The translations under genes were made by a program, and so were the position numbers. Positions 10,478-17,296 of a DNA stretch of 64,000 nucleotides are shown here, piece by piece (the stretch's first letter is position 1; every line of letters begins with the position of its first letter). Location of the stretch: NCBI RefSeq assembly GCF_900177665.1, contig NZ_FXAW01000011.1:1-64000 (forward strand), given 5' to 3'. This DNA comes from Marivirga sericea. Lineage in GTDB: Bacteria; Bacteroidota; Bacteroidia; Cytophagales; Cyclobacteriaceae. The notes below the pieces were generated by a model that made no database searches, was not told where the DNA came from, and saw only the letters and a program-made list of their open reading frames with translations.

Positions 10478-10584
10478 CTCCCTTTAATTTCCCCCAAAGG
10501 GGGAAAACTCACAGAATAAATTTAGCTTTTTGATTTGATACTGCTGCTTTTACTAATAAGTTGAAAAAGAACTAACACGACCAC

Positions 10585-10701
10585 TTCCGAGGAACTCGGA
10601 AAAGCAGGAGGGATGAAAGTTTAGCGGGCAGGCGTTGGCCTTGAGGGTAGAAACATTAAACTTTCTTGATTTTTTCTATCTTTTTTATCAAGAAAAAAGA
10701 T
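10585..10701 (+). repeat. three-hairpin structured repeat, copy 1
   Basis: Hairpin A: TTCCGAG (10585-10591) / CTCGGAA (10595-10601). Hairpin B: GAAAGTTTA (10615-10623) / TAAACTTTC (10657-10665), enclosing GCGGGCAGGCGTTGGCCTT. Hairpin C: ATCTTTTTT (10678-10686) / AAAAAAGAT (10693-10701), loop ATCAAG. The core and loop match copy 2 at 17039-17161, while all three stems differ in sequence but still pair. Elsewhere in the 10478-10854 gap, a small CCCCC/GGGGG inverted repeat (about 10490-10506) follows the NTF2-like gene. Confidence 0.8.
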
Positions 10702-10854
10702 TAAAAGAAAACTCAAGCTATAAATGTTATTCAATAGCTATAAAAGACGATTAGAATTGTGATGCTTTTTCACTTATTATTAATCTTCTCATCCCTTAAT
10801 TCCGTAATAAACAACTTACGTTTACATTTAAATTTTTAAAAAGATATAATTTTC

Positions 10855-12897
10855 ATGGATAACCCCTTATTAAAAAACTTTGACACCCCTTTTCAAACTC
10901 CTCCATTTGATAAAATTAAGTCGGAGCATTTTATGCCGGCAATAGAAGAAGCCATTAAAGAAGCCAAGCAGGAAATTGAGGACATCACCTCACTAAGTGC
11001 AGCACCCACTTTCGAAAATACCCTCGAAGCAATGGAGTTTGCGGGGAAGAGATTAAGCTCCGTTGCTTCTATTTTATCGAATCTTAATAGCGCAGAGACC
11101 AACAAAGAAATTCAAGCCACCATGCGTGAAGCTTCTCCTATATTATCGGAATTTGGAAATGAGATTTGGCAAAATGAGACATTATTTGATCGGGTAAAAA
11201 CTATTTATAATAAAAAAAACGAGCTAAGCCTTGATAATGAGCAAGAAATGCTTTTAAACAAAACCTACAAAGCGTTTATAAGAAATGGTGCTGACCTCAA
11301 TGAAAAGGATAAAGCACGCTTTAAGGAGATCACCAAAGAGCTATCGCAGTTGAGCCTCAGTTTTGGTGAAAATGTTCTGGCTGAAACCAATGATTACGAA
11401 TTGGTCATTTCAGATGAAAAAGATTTAAGTGGATTACCTGAATCTGCCATTCGTCAAGCCGCCAATACGGCAAAAAGCAAAGGAAAAGAAGGAAAATGGG
11501 TGTTCACCTTGCAAGCACCAAGTTTTGTCCCCTTTATGGAAAATGCGGATAATCGAGTTCTAAGAGAGCAGCTTTACAAAGCCTTTATGTCCAAAGCTAA
11601 CAAAAATGATGAGCGCGATAACAAAGCCATTGTGCAGGAAATCGTAAATCTGAGAAGCGAAAAAGCTACGCTTTTAGGCTATAAAACATATGCCGACTAT
11701 GTGCTTGAAGAAAGAATGGCTGAGAGTAAAGACAAAGTACAGAGATTTTTGGATGACCTCTTACAGCAATCTTTGCCTAAAGCTAAAGAAGAAGTGGCCG
11801 AAATAGAAGCATTTGTTAAGGAACTGGGAGAGAATATTGACCTTCAGCGTTGGGATTGGGCATACTATTCTGAAAAATTGAAAAAGAAAAAATATGCCAT
11901 AGATGATGAATTGCTCAGACCTTATTTCAAATTAGAAAATGTGCTGGATGGTGTATTTCAATCGGCCGAAAAATTATATGATATTCGATTTAAGGAAGTC
12001 AACAATGTAACTGTTTATCATGATGATGTCACCACTTATGAAGTGAGCAATACTGCAGGTGAGCTGGTCGCCATTTTTTATGCTGATTTCCATCCTAGGG
12101 AAGGAAAAAGAGGGGGTGCCTGGATGACGACATACCGAGATCAATATAAAGAAAATGGAGCTGACATGAGGCCATTGGTTTCCAATGTTTGCAATTTCAC
12201 GCCATCATCACCGGGCAATCCGAGCCTTTTGACTTTCAACGAAGTAACCACTCTATTCCATGAATTTGGCCATGCATTACATGCTATGTTAGGATCTGGT
12301 CACTATGGTAGTTTGACCGGAGCCAATGTCTACTGGGATTTTGTGGAATTGCCCTCTCAGATATTTGAAAACTGGTGTTATGAAAAAGAATGTCTGGATT
12401 TATTTGCAAGACATTATGAAACAGGAGAGAAGATACCACAAGAGTATGTGGATAAAATAAAAGCTAGTAGCACTTATCATGAAGCCTATGCCACTGTAAG
12501 ACAGGTTAGCTTAGCGCTCTTGGATATGGCTTACTTCACGTTAGAAAGAGAAGATGCTCAAAACTTAAGTGATATAGAAGAATTTGAAGAAAAAGCCATG
12601 GAACCAACCAAGTTGTTTCCAAAGGTATTAGGTACACTGATGAGCACTCAATTCGGGCACATTTTTGCTGGTGGTTATGCTTCTGGCTATTATAGTTATA
12701 AGTGGGCAGAAGTTTTGGATGCAGATGCCTTTGCCTTATTTCAAGAAAAAGGGATATTTAATAAGGAGGTTTCGCAATCTTTTAAAGACAACATCCTTTC
12801 GAAGGGAGGAAGCCAGCATCCCATGGAACTCTATAAAAAATTCAGGGGAAGAGAACCTAAAATTGAAGCTTTGCTCAAGAGAGCAGGGTTGAAATAG
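10855..12897 (+). CDS. dcp: M3-family oligopeptidase / peptidyl-dipeptidase
   Basis: The 680-residue protein is full length for M3 metallopeptidases of the Dcp/OpdA type. The zinc site is H469-E-F-G-H473 in TTLFHEFGHALHAMLG, with the third ligand Glu expected in FVELPSQIFENW. The M3 segment YADFHPREGKRGGAWMT and the late tyrosine-rich loop GGYASGYYSYKWAEVLDADA are also present. There is no signal peptide, so it is cytosolic. It removes C-terminal dipeptides or cleaves short peptides during peptide turnover. Transcribed alone, with a strong terminator at 12921-12952. Confidence 0.9.
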   Translation: MDNPLLKNFDTPFQTPPFDKIKSEHFMPAIEEAIKEAKQEIEDITSLSAAPTFENTLEAMEFAGKRLSSVASILSNLNSAETNKEIQATMREASPILSEFGNEIWQNETLFDRVKTIYNKKNELSLDNEQEMLLNKTYKAFIRNGADLNEKDKARFKEITKELSQLSLSFGENVLAETNDYELVISDEKDLSGLPESAIRQAANTAKSKGKEGKWVFTLQAPSFVPFMENADNRVLREQLYKAFMSKANKNDERDNKAIVQEIVNLRSEKATLLGYKTYADYVLEERMAESKDKVQRFLDDLLQQSLPKAKEEVAEIEAFVKELGENIDLQRWDWAYYSEKLKKKKYAIDDELLRPYFKLENVLDGVFQSAEKLYDIRFKEVNNVTVYHDDVTTYEVSNTAGELVAIFYADFHPREGKRGGAWMTTYRDQYKENGADMRPLVSNVCNFTPSSPGNPSLLTFNEVTTLFHEFGHALHAMLGSGHYGSLTGANVYWDFVELPSQIFENWCYEKECLDLFARHYETGEKIPQEYVDKIKASSTYHEAYATVRQVSLALLDMAYFTLEREDAQNLSDIEEFEEKAMEPTKLFPKVLGTLMSTQFGHIFAGGYASGYYSYKWAEVLDADAFALFQEKGIFNKEVSQSFKDNILSKGGSQHPMELYKKFRGREPKIEALLKRAGLK

Positions 12898-12920
12898 TAT
12901 TATTATATTTAATTGAAATC

Positions 12921-12952
12921 AAAAAGCGTGCTGTTGCAAGCATGCTTTTTTT
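12921..12952 (+). terminator. intrinsic terminator after dcp
   Basis: AAAAAGC-GTGCT and AGCAT-GCTTTTT pair around a GTTGCA loop, followed by more T. It starts 24 nt past the dcp stop. Confidence 0.85.
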
Positions 12953-13153
12953 ATCTGAGGAAAGTCATTATTAATCGAAAATTTATATTCGATGTATGTT
13001 TTTGGCAAAATAATTCAAGTATAATTGAAATAATTATATAATATTTGAACTTAAAGAAGAGAAAAGGTAATTTCAGACAACGAATCGAAGACATTTAATA
13101 TTGTTTCTGGTCCGCTATTTGTTAAGTACATATTTTACAAAAAACACAAGGAT

Positions 13154-13840
13154 ATGAGAAAGATATTTACACTTTTGTTCGTGCTAAGTTTTTTTATTTC
13201 ACAAGCTCAGACAACAATTAAAATTACTCCAAAACCTAAACCAGAACCTAAACCCCAAAGCACACAACCAGCTATTTTTAAACCAAAGTCAAATGCAAAT
13301 CTCAATCCTGAGGAATATAGGATAAAGGGAGAAAAATTTAGTAGAAACACATTCTATCTAAACATACTAGGGCCATCAATTCCAGCTTCCTTTAATTATG
13401 AAAGAATTATAACCAAAAATGGATTAATAAATTTTGCAGCCAAAATTGGTGGATTCTACATACCTATAGCTCAATATAATGACTTGAAATTAGCAAACGC
13501 GAGCTTTGAAGTTAATATGCTGGTTGGAAGAAGAAGTCACCTTTTTGTAATGGGTTTTGGTTGGGCAGGATATTACGGTCAATTTTTTAATAACAATCAA
13601 GGAGAAGTTAGAAACTACGGAATTCCAACAAGTACTTTTGGAATGCATTATAGATTTCAAAAACCTTCTCATAGCGTATTTTTTCAAGTAGGAATTACCT
13701 CTACCACTTTACTCGGTTTCGCTTCTGATGATTTAATAGAAATGGCCATTGGTAACGCAGTGATTTATGGAATGGACTTAATTTTTGGCGAGAAACCCAA
13801 TTTTACTGTGCCTTCCATAGGCATCGGATATTCTTTTTGA
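13154..13840 (+). CDS. secreted protein with Pro/Lys linker, probable barrel
   Basis: The 228-residue protein has a signal peptide (MRKIFTLLFVLSFFISQAQ), then a short Lys-Pro-Glu-rich linker (ITPKPKPEPKPQ at about residues 24-36) and a beta-rich domain (FYLNILGPSIPASFNYERII; MLVGRRSHLFVMGFGWAGYY; FQVGITSTTLLGF) ending SIGIGYSF with terminal Phe. This suggests a small outer-membrane barrel with a periplasmic linker. The family is not recognised. It stands alone between the dcp terminator and the sensor kinase. Confidence 0.65.
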   Translation: MRKIFTLLFVLSFFISQAQTTIKITPKPKPEPKPQSTQPAIFKPKSNANLNPEEYRIKGEKFSRNTFYLNILGPSIPASFNYERIITKNGLINFAAKIGGFYIPIAQYNDLKLANASFEVNMLVGRRSHLFVMGFGWAGYYGQFFNNNQGEVRNYGIPTSTFGMHYRFQKPSHSVFFQVGITSTTLLGFASDDLIEMAIGNAVIYGMDLIFGEKPNFTVPSIGIGYSF

Positions 13841-14149
13841 GGCTAGAAGCTCTTTTTATCTATTATGGTTTTGACCTCGAGAAAAGTGCTACGGAAAATT
13901 ATGGAATTTCTGGGTATGCTTTTCTTTTTTTGCTGATCATAAACTAATCCAATACGAGATCGAACTGTTTTCAGGAATAGCAAAAAGTATTTGGTAATGG
14001 AGAAACTTATCCCTACTCCAACATTAAATACTAAAAATTACATCTTTTTTGTACAATTTTTATATAATATATATGTATTATACTTAGAATCTGTTGTATA
14101 TTTAAAACTACTATAGGTTTTAGTGCTTGAAAGGATTTTCAATTTTGGT
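13841..14149. other. AT-rich intergenic region
   Basis: No gene or strong hairpin is visible. The segment 14041-14110 is extremely AT-rich (TTTTTATATAATATATATG and following) and probably holds the promoter of the sensor kinase gene, but no single box is convincing. Confidence 0.3.
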
Positions 14150-16084
14150 ATGCGTTATATAATTTTCACGATTTCATTTCTTCTTTTTGGTTTTACAAAA
14201 AGTAGTAGCCAAAACCTTTCTTCAGATCAAGCTGCTGCGCTCAGTAGAGCCTATCAAGACAAGGCTTTATGGTTTAGAGAAATGCCGCATTTTAATCGTG
14301 ACAGTACGGTTTTTTATTTTGACAGGGCTGTATTACTCCTCCAAAATAGTGAACCATTTCAATATGAACTTTTAGCGGATTTATATCGTGATATCACCGA
14401 TAGAGCGAATAGGTCCCATAACTTTATTGTAGTGGATTCCCTTGCTCCTATAGGGTGGTCGTATTACGAAAAAATCCCCGAAAGCAAGAAAGATAAGGTT
14501 TTGGGTTATGATTTATTGATCAACTGGGCTTTAATAAAAATAATAAGAGGAGAACCCAAAGCAGGGCTAGAACTTTTTATAAATGCCCAAGACTTGCTTG
14601 AAGATGATCCCAGGCCTGAAATTCAGCTAAAGCTTTTGAAAAATAAGGGTAGGTTTTATTACCAATATGGTTTACCTGAGGAAGAAGAAATAGGAGTTAA
14701 ATATTTGAAGGAGAGTATAGAGGGTTATGAGAATTCAGAATATGCCGAGAGAACTGAGGCATTGGTGCTAGCATATAAACTATTAGCTTACCACTACTTA
14801 TTTGAAAAGCCGGATTCAACTGACTACTATATGAATCAATTTGCCGAACTACTACCTGAAATAACCAATCCCTTTCATCACACTTGGTTTTCCTATAATA
14901 TGGGAGATATTTTAGTAGAAAAAGAACAATATGCTGAGGCAAAACCGTACCTTTTCAAATCTATTAGATTATTAGAAGAGTATAATCTGACCACTATCGA
15001 TATTTATCAGTTTGCACATTATCTCTTGAGCAATGCAGCCGAGGCTGAAGGTAACTTTGATCAAGCAATTGAGTACTGTGAAATAGCCAAAAATGCCTCA
15101 ATAGAAATAGAAACTAAGTCAAATACAGCATATTTTATGGAAAAACTATCCACCTTATATGCGCTTAAAGAAGATTATAAGACTGCCCTTGAATATTACA
15201 AAGAATTTTCAGAGATCAACAATATCATCGAAGTAGAGAGAAATGAAAGAAGCCTCCGTGAAAATGAATTGGAAGCGAATGTACTCAAACAAGATCAGGA
15301 GCTTGTTGCAAATCAGCAAAAGCAAATAATCTATATTGCTGCTTTAACTATCGGTGGTTTATTACTTGTGCTATTATATCGTAATTATAGGCTTAAGAAA
15401 AGAAGTAATCAGACATTAGAAGCTTTGAATGGAGAGTTAGCTAATAAAAATGAATTACTTGATAAACGGAATGCAGAAAACGAACTGCTCCTCAAAGAAA
15501 TACATCATCGTGTGAAAAATAATTTGGAGATGGTAAAAAGCCTGATTGCTTTGCAATCTGCTCAGATTGATGACCCTGCCACCAAAGACGCTATGATTGC
15601 CAGCCAGAATAGAGTACAATCAATGGGTATCATTCATCAAAAACTATATCAGGGGACAAATCTGGGAAGTATCGAAATGAAAGATTACTTCTTAAATCTT
15701 AGTGAAGGTATATTGGACTCTTTTAATGCGGAAGAACGAGTGAAGATTGAGTTTGCAATGGATAATCTAGACTTAGATGTAGATACAGCCGTTCCCATCG
15801 GACTTATTGTAAATGAGCTGTTGACAAATGCACTCAAATATGCATTTCCTAAAAATGAACAAGGTACTATCCACATAAGTTTAGCAAAAACAGCTAATAA
15901 CAATTTGAAGTTGAAAGTGGATGATAATGGTGTAGGAAAAGTAGTAGGGATAGCTCCTAAAGGGACTGGTTTCGGTTCGCAGTTGGTGCAATTATTAACG
16001 CAGCAGCTCAATGGGCAAATGAAAGAGCATAGCAACCAAGGTACCCATATTGAATTTGATTTCTTACTAAAGAAAAGTGCTTAG
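14150..16084 (+). CDS. TPR sensor histidine kinase, HisKA_2 type
   Basis: Start taken at ATG 14150 (MRYIIFTISFLLFGF), which makes a signal peptide; a GTG at 14123 is in frame but adds a poor leader. Order in the 644 residues: signal peptide, TPR-like helical repeats (about 30-390), one membrane helix (IIYIAALTIGGLLLVLLY), a coiled coil, then the dimerisation box EIHHRVKNNLEM with phospho-acceptor His 452 or 453, and an HATPase domain (GLIVNELLTNALKYAF; VDDNGVG; GTGFGSQLV). The downstream regulator begins on the base after its stop, so the two form a coupled two-component operon. The signal sensed is unknown. Confidence 0.9.
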   Translation: MRYIIFTISFLLFGFTKSSSQNLSSDQAAALSRAYQDKALWFREMPHFNRDSTVFYFDRAVLLLQNSEPFQYELLADLYRDITDRANRSHNFIVVDSLAPIGWSYYEKIPESKKDKVLGYDLLINWALIKIIRGEPKAGLELFINAQDLLEDDPRPEIQLKLLKNKGRFYYQYGLPEEEEIGVKYLKESIEGYENSEYAERTEALVLAYKLLAYHYLFEKPDSTDYYMNQFAELLPEITNPFHHTWFSYNMGDILVEKEQYAEAKPYLFKSIRLLEEYNLTTIDIYQFAHYLLSNAAEAEGNFDQAIEYCEIAKNASIEIETKSNTAYFMEKLSTLYALKEDYKTALEYYKEFSEINNIIEVERNERSLRENELEANVLKQDQELVANQQKQIIYIAALTIGGLLLVLLYRNYRLKKRSNQTLEALNGELANKNELLDKRNAENELLLKEIHHRVKNNLEMVKSLIALQSAQIDDPATKDAMIASQNRVQSMGIIHQKLYQGTNLGSIEMKDYFLNLSEGILDSFNAEERVKIEFAMDNLDLDVDTAVPIGLIVNELLTNALKYAFPKNEQGTIHISLAKTANNNLKLKVDDNGVGKVVGIAPKGTGFGSQLVQLLTQQLNGQMKEHSNQGTHIEFDFLLKKSA

Positions 16085-16828
16085 ATGAGTGAGAAGCTGA
16101 AAATAGTAATTGTTGAAGATGAAATGCTCATTGGAGCCAATATATCATTGCAGCTCAATGAATTAGGATATCAGGTTACTGGAATCATTCCAAGAGGGGA
16201 AGAAGCACTGAAACATATTGAGGACCATCTTCCTGATATCATGCTGCTGGATATAAATCTTAAGGGAGATTTAGACGGTATTGAAACTGCCATAGAGATG
16301 CAAAAAACGCATAATATCCCTATTATTTATTTGACGGCTAATACCGATGACGCACATTTTAATCGGGCTAAAGAAACGAAGCCTTTCGGGTTTATATCAA
16401 AGCCATTTAAGAAATTGGATTTACAACGTACCATTGAGTTGACAATTAACCAGATGGAGTCGAAAGACAAAAAAAGTGTTGAAATCGAATCGCAAAATAA
16501 CAATTCATTTCTATTAAGTGACTGTATTTTTGTAAGGCATTTAAATTCAATGGTCAAGGTTGATATAAAAGACATTCTCTACATTGAAGCAGAGCGTAAT
16601 TATTGCCGTATATTTTCGAGTGCTAAAGAATATTTGGTGGTCATGTCGCTCAAGGAAATGGACGAAAAGCTCCCTTCAAAGCACTTTCTAAGAACGCACC
16701 GTTCTTACATCATAAACTTATCGCAAATCAAAGAGATAGCCGCTACTCATGTAGTAATAGGCAATAAGGCCCTGCCAGTGACCAAATCATTGAAGGAAGA
16801 GCTGCTAAAGCGGATACAGACCATTTAA
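16085..16828 (+). CDS. LytTR-family response regulator
   Basis: The 247-residue protein has a receiver domain (residues 1-125) with acidic pocket E11/D12, phospho-acceptor D56 in IMLLDINLKGDLDG and the Lys loop ISKPF, then a LytTR DNA-binding domain (about 145-247; DILYIEAERNYCRIFSSAKE, FLRTHRSYIINL). Its ATG follows the kinase stop with no gap, indicating translational coupling. LytTR regulators bind direct repeats at promoters; no target can be named from this window. Confidence 0.92.
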   Translation: MSEKLKIVIVEDEMLIGANISLQLNELGYQVTGIIPRGEEALKHIEDHLPDIMLLDINLKGDLDGIETAIEMQKTHNIPIIYLTANTDDAHFNRAKETKPFGFISKPFKKLDLQRTIELTINQMESKDKKSVEIESQNNNSFLLSDCIFVRHLNSMVKVDIKDILYIEAERNYCRIFSSAKEYLVVMSLKEMDEKLPSKHFLRTHRSYIINLSQIKEIAATHVVIGNKALPVTKSLKEELLKRIQTI

Positions 16829-16830
16829 TT

Positions 16831-16886
16831 CCTTCGGCAGAAAACTCTCTCCTTTGGACAGTAAAAACCGGGACTTTGTCCTAGAT
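16831..16886 (+). repeat. CCTTCGGACAG-type dispersed repeat, copy 1 (diverged)
   Basis: CCTTCGGCAG at 16831, then CCTTTGGACAG (16851-16861) and GACTTTGTCCTAGAT (about 16872-16886). It matches the plan of three other copies in the window: CCTTCGGACAG, a 10-40 nt spacer, then CTTCGTCCTnGATC. It starts 2 nt after the LytTR regulator stop. Confidence 0.6.
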
Positions 16887-17030
16887 AAACGTTTTCCTCG
16901 CTGGAACAGCTTGATTAATGAAATCATTGATTTTTCAATCAACTATTTTAAAATAATTAGGAAAGTCTTAAACGAGCTTAAAACAAGGGCGAACTATGTT
17001 CGATTTTTTACTAAACTCATTAATAGCTAA

Positions 17031-17161
17031 CTCCCCCATTTTCGCCTGAAGCGAAAAAGCGGGCTGGAGGGTAAAATGGCGGGCAAGCGCTGGCCTTTGT
17101 GGGTAGTAGCATCATTTTACCTAGATTTTTTGCATACTTTTTCATCATTGGAAAAAGTATG
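17031..17161 (+). repeat. three-hairpin structured repeat, copy 2
   Basis: Hairpin A: TTTTCGC (17039-17045) / GCGAAAA (17051-17057). Hairpin B: GGTAAAATG (17070-17078) / CATTTTACC (17113-17121), enclosing GCGGGCAAGCGCTGGCCTTT and GGGTAG. Hairpin C: CATACTTTTTC (17133-17143) / GAAAAAGTATG (17151-17161), loop ATCATTG. Outside stem A, CTCC at 17031 can pair with GGAG at 17066. The stems differ from copy 1 but pair fully. Copy 2 lies in a 708 bp gene-free gap (16829-17536) that also holds two CCTTCGGACAG repeats and a terminator-like hairpin. Confidence 0.8.
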
Positions 17162-17240
17162 AAAGGTAAACTAGCATAAACAATATTTCTGAAAGGTTTT
17201 TAAGTTTATGCAAAACTGTAGCACAAATTCCAGCTTTATT

Positions 17241-17296
17241 CCTTCGGACAGAAAAAGCCTTTCTTCGGACAGAAAAATGGGGGCTTCGTCCTAGAT
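17241..17296 (+). repeat. CCTTCGGACAG-type dispersed repeat, copy 2
   Basis: CCTTCGGACAGAAAAAG, then a second CTTCGGACAGAAAAATGG and GGCTTCGTCCTAGATC. It is the clearest copy, with a doubled left motif. It lies ~80 bp after the three-hairpin repeat. Confidence 0.7.

Follow-up and report, generated by a model that had tools for sequence, protein, structure and literature searches.

The window analysed here, 64,000 nucleotides of Marivirga sericea (assembly GCF_900177665.1, contig NZ_FXAW01000011.1, positions 1 to 64,000 of the forward strand), contains two clusters of hairpins at 10585-10701 and 17039-17161, which are copies of one dispersed repeat (Table 1). A sequence-only reading of this DNA had matched the two clusters and quoted their stems, and both are present as described. 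The core GCGGGCARGCGYTGGCC has two matches in the window at up to 3 mismatches, where 0.04 are expected. Folded as single-stranded DNA, copy 1 and copy 2 gave z values of -3.76 and -3.65, each being better than 200 of 200 shuffled sequences. The conserved fold consists of a bulged stem 2 with a G-rich head, a CWWGNN linker, a T-run and a T/A hairpin with a linker-complementary loop. It recurs with nearly all-Watson-Crick compensation in many dispersed copies; the observation is real and general, and the family is far larger than two copies.

Table 1. Parts of the two repeat copies in the window and the direct repeats beside copy 2
Feature	Position	Strand	Remarks
Copy 1, whole unit (~147 bp)	10565..10711	+	Limits are where most relatives' copies cease matching; in BLAST of window:9900-11600 the matches of other copies mostly span query 666-812
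Copy 1, stem 1	10585..10601	+	TTCCGAG, loop GAA, CTCGGAA; subfamily-specific
Copy 1, stem 2	10615..10665	+	GAAAGTTTA (10615-10623) pairs with TAAACTTTC (10657-10665); second inner pair unformed (C10625/A10653)
Copy 1, stem 2 bulge	10655-10656	+	AT, 2 nt; apical part between the arms G-rich
Copy 1, linker CTTGAT	10665..10670	+	Complement of its own stem 3 loop ATCAAG (10687-10692)
Copy 1, stem 3	10678..10701	+	ATCTTTTTT (10678-10686), loop ATCAAG, AAAAAAGAT (10693-10701)
Copy 2, whole unit (~145 bp)	17019..17163	+	Limits from BLAST extents of other copies; matches reach 17180 in some other copies and, to the left, ~16891 in a few
Copy 2, stem 1	17039..17057	+	TTTTCGC, loop CTGAA, GCGAAAA
Copy 2, stem 2	17070..17121	+	GGTAAAATG (17070-17078) pairs with CATTTTACC (17113-17121)
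Copy 2, stem 2 bulge and inner pairs	17111-17112	+	Bulge AT; inner pairs G17079-C17110 and C17080-G17109
Copy 2, linker CTAGAT	17121..17126	+	Last three letters complement the loop ATCATTG (GAT/ATC)
Copy 2, stem 3	17133..17161	+	CATACTTTTTC (17133-17143), loop ATCATTG (17144-17150), GAAAAAGTATG (17151-17161)
Imperfect direct repeat, left copy	16824..16886	+	TTTAATTCCTTCGG...CCTAGAT; left of the stretch with copy 2
Imperfect direct repeat, right copy	17235..17296	+	TTTATTCCTTCGG...CCTAGAT; right of copy 2

Stem 2 is built of 9 bp, a two-base bulge and 2 further bp. In 135 distinct copies, whose alignment was fitted to the structure, 97.9% of 1440 cells were paired and all 11 pairs were altered on both sides, compared to 64.8% with shuffled partners (a control that ignores relatedness) and 41-61% with partners slid by 1-3 columns. 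An alignment of 30 sequences that was not model-fitted gave 97.6% (35-51% slid), and the first seven copies gave 98.4% of 63 cells (34.9-60.3% slid by 1-3 columns). The bulge reads AT in 96 and TT in 31 of the 135 copies, and the apical part, 7 to 74 nt long with a median of 28, contains GTRG in 85. Stem 3 combines a constant CTTTTT/AAAAAG with 20 different outer-arm strings, of which some are contained in others; as the arms were picked by perfect pairing, the strings show variety and not a pairing rate. It was unreadable in 6 of the 135 copies, and chance hairpins make up 3 of the other 129. A perfect stem 1 hairpin of at least 6 bp occurred in only 9 of 20 own copies, one of the nine (L022) being of unrelated sequence, and in 12 of 71 copies from other genera, and stem 1 is thus a subfamily trait. 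Covariation in every stem, as proposed from the window, therefore holds for stems 2 and 3, where it is general and compensated, but not for stem 1. Some copies contain short inserted palindromes. The copy 1 orthologue in relative G003 (L230 ~2000-2200; G003:C1, ~974975-975094) has an additional palindrome in its head and an inverted stem 3 loop (CTTGAT for ATCAAG).

Stem 2 is followed by the CWWGNN linker, a T-rich stretch and stem 3, in this order; CWWG is present in 124 and the T-rich stretch in 132 of the 135 copies. The loop of stem 3 mostly reads N'N'CWWG or is one letter longer, and this complementarity of linker and loop, missed by the sequence-only reading, is new here. In 108 of 129 copies the loop, taken with its two flanking letters, contains a complement to the last three linker letters, compared to a mean of 42 and a maximum of 57 in 2000 trials with loops reassigned among copies. 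All six letters are complemented in 64 of 129 (shuffled mean 17, maximum 29); the shuffling ignores relatedness in both cases. CTTG linkers go with CAAG, CTAG linkers mostly with CAATG, CATTG or CATG, and CATG linkers with CTAG, so that the CTAG and CATG classes contain a mismatch inside their own copy. Two head-to-head neighbours in the cluster L064 fit each other in this respect, the linker of one (CTAGAT) being complementary to the loop of the other (ATCTAG), a single case that is suggestive of a match between copies.

The 1440 cells of stem 2 comprise 1395 Watson-Crick, 15 G-T, 11 A-C and 19 other combinations. Acceptor stems of 14 tRNAs, used as a control (98 cells), showed 7 G-T, 0 A-C and 2 other; this control is small and lenient, since the best of five acceptor offsets was taken, which favours pairing. 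G-T is scarcely more frequent than A-C in the repeat, unlike in the tRNAs, and the pairing of stem 2 therefore looks like that in DNA. Template-corrected hairpins would give the same picture.

For searches we used a model R1 built from seven own-genome copies and a broader model R2 built from 30 sequences, both with rough E-values. The M. sericea genome contains 20 copies with E<=1.1e-4, and a single further R1 match, at 0.84, brings the number at E<=1 to 21; the repeat was found in 24 of 59 genomes (own included) at E<=0.001. Within the genus 9 of 10 genomes (own included) have 9 to 45 copies each; the remaining member, G008, gave no copy in the R1 search. In the class 70 of 295 genomes contain the repeat (R2, E<=1e-4), and as 13 candidates were scored per genome, copy counts are lower bounds and some genomes were possibly missed. 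The pairings held in the further copies found with these models in the own genome and relatives, so that the two copies of the window, which were all that the sequence-only reading had, stand for a widespread family. An exact pattern searched over GTDB genomes matched 44 stretches, many from the same few genomes and all 44 titled Bacteroidota (Mucilaginibacter, Flavobacteriales, Bacteroidales, Chitinophagaceae and unplaced Bacteroidetes); an earlier pattern matched none. Phage records contained no match to copy 2 and viral contigs none to one exact pattern, and among plasmid records copy 2 was matched in one, Marivirga sp. BKB1-2 p1, which carries a stretch also present on the second contig of relative G005. 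Three different copies lie next to one another at NZ_CP129969.1 24467-25170 and at G005:C1:3527599-3528299, a 701-bp stretch with 99.1% identity between the chromosome and a circular 25-kb plasmid, which has a gene annotated as site-specific integrase. In the titles and abstract starts searched, the repeat is undescribed; identity with the subclass 2.6 repeats of PMC6006769 is possible.

Of the three ideas put forward from the window, a non-autonomous, REP-like mobile element (REP, repetitive extragenic palindromic sequence) is the best supported, given the dispersed copies, clusters, head-to-head pairs and one empty site in a relative; the mover that it implies was not found. Matches between own copies and those of other genus members mostly end within ~60 bp to the left and ~130 bp to the right of the first base of the core; as exceptions, some copies match over 400 bp and a few are orthologous over more. 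The only clean filled/empty pair, in which gain and loss are indistinguishable, is the own copy L021, located in ~325 bp that the G006 orthologue does not have, between flanks of 84% and 82% identity. The ends of this stretch, GGGTACTCTTGATTA...TAATTAGAACCCTC, are imperfectly inverted, and TTTTA stands at either joint; its left end is similar in 4 of 5 sister copies compared, and its right end is not common to the sisters. In another subfamily several GGTAAAATG-type copies are part of ~400-bp units with inverted ends CCTGTTTTCCTCG...CGAGGAAAACAGG. Copy 1 is matched by an orthologue in G003, and no clean empty site was seen for it. At copy 2, 348 bp with the element are flanked by the ~63-bp imperfect direct repeats; the stretches of G003, G004 and G006 compared at this site have one direct repeat and no element, and showed no orthologous copy, while the gap in G007 was read partly. 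The direct repeat itself, of a TTCCTTCGGACAG...CGTCC-type for which we know of no name, is present at further places in related genomes.

Copies often lie close together. The 35 close pairs (<=500 bp), a tally that includes the same clusters in two species (L064/L066 and L068/L071), comprise 22 in the same direction, 11 head-to-head and 2 tail-to-tail; the head-to-head doublets resemble REPINs (paired REPs). Weaker copies outside this tally form four further head-to-head pairs (L079, L087, L279, L290) and one tail-to-tail pair (L054). At L102 (G184:C6:547500-554500) six copies in two groups occupy ~2.8 kb, intermixed with other palindromes, CCCGGGTTAAAACCCGGG and CCTGCCTGCCGGTAGGCAGG, and a second repeated module. 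Genome context was assessed with open frames of at least 90 aa standing for genes, and of 130 copies 13 that overlapped and 14 at locus ends were excluded. Of the resulting 103 copies, 68 have the same orientation as the upstream open frame and 17 lie between divergent open frames. The leading strand by GC skew carries 33 of 47 copies (19 of 29 in G003, 14 of 18 in G006), the skew zones having been assigned visually from 20 noisy samples per genome.

The search for a mover centred on Y1 tyrosine transposases, including REP-associated tyrosine transposases (RAYTs). The Y1 family PF01797 was found in 24 of 26 genomes, and the RAYT-like family NF047646 in 13 of 14 at E<=0.01, with 8 of 14 above the cut-off. 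Of 72 Y1 stretches scanned, some of them overlapping, four have the element at E<1e-8, ~0.3 to 3.4 kb from the gene; the element nearest to a Y1 gene is ~0.26 kb away with another palindrome in between (L150), and the two RAYT genes read closely (L011, L150) have different palindromes at their borders. Of 16 RAYTs (E<=1e-10) in G003, G005, G006 and G009, 5 are within 5 kb of a copy compared to 0.6 expected (P 0.0002, rotation), 2 within 2 kb (P 0.02) and 1 within 1 kb (P 0.12), these windows having been chosen after the data were seen. Outside this tally, a RAYT-like match in G002 (C11:519189-519605) lies ~0.3 kb from a copy (C11:518782-518865). This proximity could be due to shared soft chromosome regions or to a real link. 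In the own genome none of the four NF047646 matches is within 5 kb of a copy, and G008 has RAYT-like matches and zero copies. The linked TnpA/RAYT suggested by the sequence-only reading was thus not found at the element borders, yet RAYT-like genes exist in most genomes tested and are nearer to copies than expected from random placement. G005, with 17 copies, had been considered as a Y1-free genome on the basis of PF01797; this was dropped when NF047646 gave two matches.

As observations on the Y1 genes themselves, L011 (G000:C16:505209-508457; gene 1264-1794, - strand) is an intact 176-aa Y1/RAYT-like gene of the own genome with short palindromes at both borders, e.g. CGGATTGTAAATCCG, GTTCGACATTACAAATGTCGAAC and AAGATTATAAATCTTG, which are perhaps the 'atypical' repeats of subclass 2.6. 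The second own-genome Y1 match, L012 (G000:C17:529383-532610), has an in-frame stop. When both strands were counted, 540 kb near Y1 genes contained 26 hairpins resembling stem 3, of which six belong to known copies, and 1600 kb of control stretches, some copies included, contained 52; clear separated transposon ends were not found among them. Head-to-head pairs ~1 kb apart enclose an AlbA_2 gene (L047) and a YdjM gene (L285), and as these belong to different families no autonomous version was seen. At L047 1501-2760 (G034:C45) the two copies are of one subfamily, and with the enclosed Schlafen AlbA_2-domain gene the arrangement resembles a one-gene cassette.

Our tentative preference, to which we give a little less than an even chance, is for a dispersed, non-autonomous mobile element of Bacteroidota whose DNA strand is recognised in its folded form; that an enzyme acting in trans does so is inferred. 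A single strand, either the lagging-strand template or a transposition intermediate, would fold, and an enzyme supplied in trans may bind the hairpins. The pairing of linker and loop could then position the cut site, comparable to IS200/IS605 elements, in which guide and cleavage tetranucleotides pair. Copies would land in intergenic gaps, often beside an older copy, and arrays and head-to-head pairs would result. Hairpin processing is able to give a loop inversion like that of the copy 1 orthologue in G003. We consider it rather doubtful that the claim extends to a phylum-wide class of DNA elements whose movement or recombination takes place as folded single strands, guided by their own linker-loop pairing and carried out by an enzyme that is neither RAYT nor integron integrase, the CTAG and CATG variants pairing between two copies.

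Several points weigh against recognition of a folded DNA strand. A linked enzyme was not found in the neighbourhoods of 90 loci, where the largest recurring cluster of neighbour genes comprised 8 proteins in 7 loci (T9SS-type tails, that is, of the type IX secretion system, by our reading) and four further clusters had 3 loci each. The draft genome G248, with a completeness rating of 100%, contains 11 or more copies and gave matches to neither PF01797 nor NF047646. No intermediate or excision was seen. The TTTTA joints and the ~400-bp units with inverted ends fit double-stranded cut-and-paste at least as well, and the co-orientation with upstream genes would also be expected of an RNA role and confounds the leading-strand bias.

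Cut-and-paste is the basis of an alternative that we regard as unlikely, in which the conserved folded core sits inside several units resembling miniature inverted-repeat transposable elements (MITEs) that are moved by DDE transposases, the core being cargo or a terminator-like part and not the transposase target. The joints and inverted ends of L021, its left end shared by most sister copies, and the ends of the GGTAAAATG-type units argue for it. The right end of L021 is not shared, however, own copies mostly match others over only ~100 to 190 bp, and the same fold is kept by subfamilies with different ends, which makes the fold the constant part. Still less probable, in our view, is that the element is a REP or REPIN and thus the substrate of a RAYT (TnpA-REP). 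The presence of NF047646 in nearly all genomes tested, the RAYTs within 5 kb of copies, the close match in G002 and the head-to-head doublets, which are REPIN-like as described in the excerpt of PMC3116915, point in this direction; the few Y1 stretches with an element, the foreign palindromes bordering L011 and L150, the distant own-genome matches and the lack of a RAYT match in G248 do not. Two defining features of REPs were tested and failed, namely copies flanking the transposase gene and a GT[AG]G foot, which is within 2 nt of the stem foot in 3 of 135 copies for stem 2 and 0 of 129 for stem 3.

A structured RNA, for instance an element of the 3' untranslated region, a small RNA or a terminator or attenuator, spread as a module and with the linker and loop forming a pseudoknot, appears improbable. 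The orientation relative to upstream open frames agrees with it, and the U-rich strand next to the A-U helix would be compatible with a pseudoknot of triple-helical form. But the idea of a new structured RNA, raised by the sequence-only reading, loses weight because G-U is not preferred here as it is in the tRNA control, and the copies between divergent open frames also argue against it. In the window Rfam gave no hit that reached the gathering score, which by itself would not exclude a new RNA, and in nine loci at E<=5 it gave eight weak matches with none across the core. For a terminator-like unit, the third of the early ideas, the modest orientation bias is all that was found. Least probable, and hard to credit, is an absence of selection on the fold, in which case hairpin-templated repair or template switching would keep the inverted repeats perfect and compensation would be a mutational product. 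The near-absence of G-T would be the outcome of such template correction, and the loop inversion in G003 agrees with it. However, unpaired parts are kept as well (bulge AT or TT in 127 of 135 copies, and the CWWG linker), and the core occurs in 70 of 295 genomes of the class.

The signal of fold and covariation is strong enough for a search model and for designing binding and excision tests. If something reads the repeat in its folded DNA form, Bacteroidota, a phylum with abundant members in gut, soil and sea, would have an unknown enzyme that recognises hairpins; otherwise, with G-T nearly absent, the family would be well suited for testing template-corrected palindromes in nature.

Among known systems, integron attC sites are also folded strands that are read by structure, with stems free to vary and arrays of non-identical copies. 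They have RYYYAAC/GTTRRRY ends and a linked integron integrase, and arrays of our element, in contrast, may alternate in orientation (L064). IS200/IS605-like elements have guide-cleavage base pairing and a single-stranded intermediate; the complementary linker and loop of the repeat may be a counterpart of the former. RU-1 is the enterobacterial repetitive intergenic consensus (ERIC), and pneumococcal BOX is a comparable repeat. The RU elements of Enterobacteria, with the 127-bp RU-1, are described in the excerpt of PMC2759123 as small mobile MITE-like sequences, and the repeat resembles ERIC/RU and BOX in size, intergenic position and this small mobile character. It differs by phylum and sequence and by the class-wide compensatory change demonstrated here. 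CGTC-tagged REPs are dispersed palindromes that are said, in the excerpt of PMC3733652, to have no dedicated transposase; AATGACG motifs with the look of CGTC-REPs lie between copies in the arrays L062 and L063, but CGTC occurs in just 14 of 135 copies of the element. Like REP, BIME (bacterial interspersed mosaic element) and REPIN-RAYT systems, the element is a dispersed non-coding hairpin repeat mostly outside genes, with inverted doublets and clusters (excerpts of PMC3116915; PMC3733652). At ~145 bp with two to three hairpins it exceeds the REP length of 20-40 bp (excerpt of PMC3733652), and it is found away from RAYT borders where these were read, shows linker-loop complementarity and has no GT[AG]G foot, a motif also reported as absent from subclass 2.6 (excerpt of PMC6006769). 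On balance, the element works like a mobile repeat of the REP/BIME or ERIC type.

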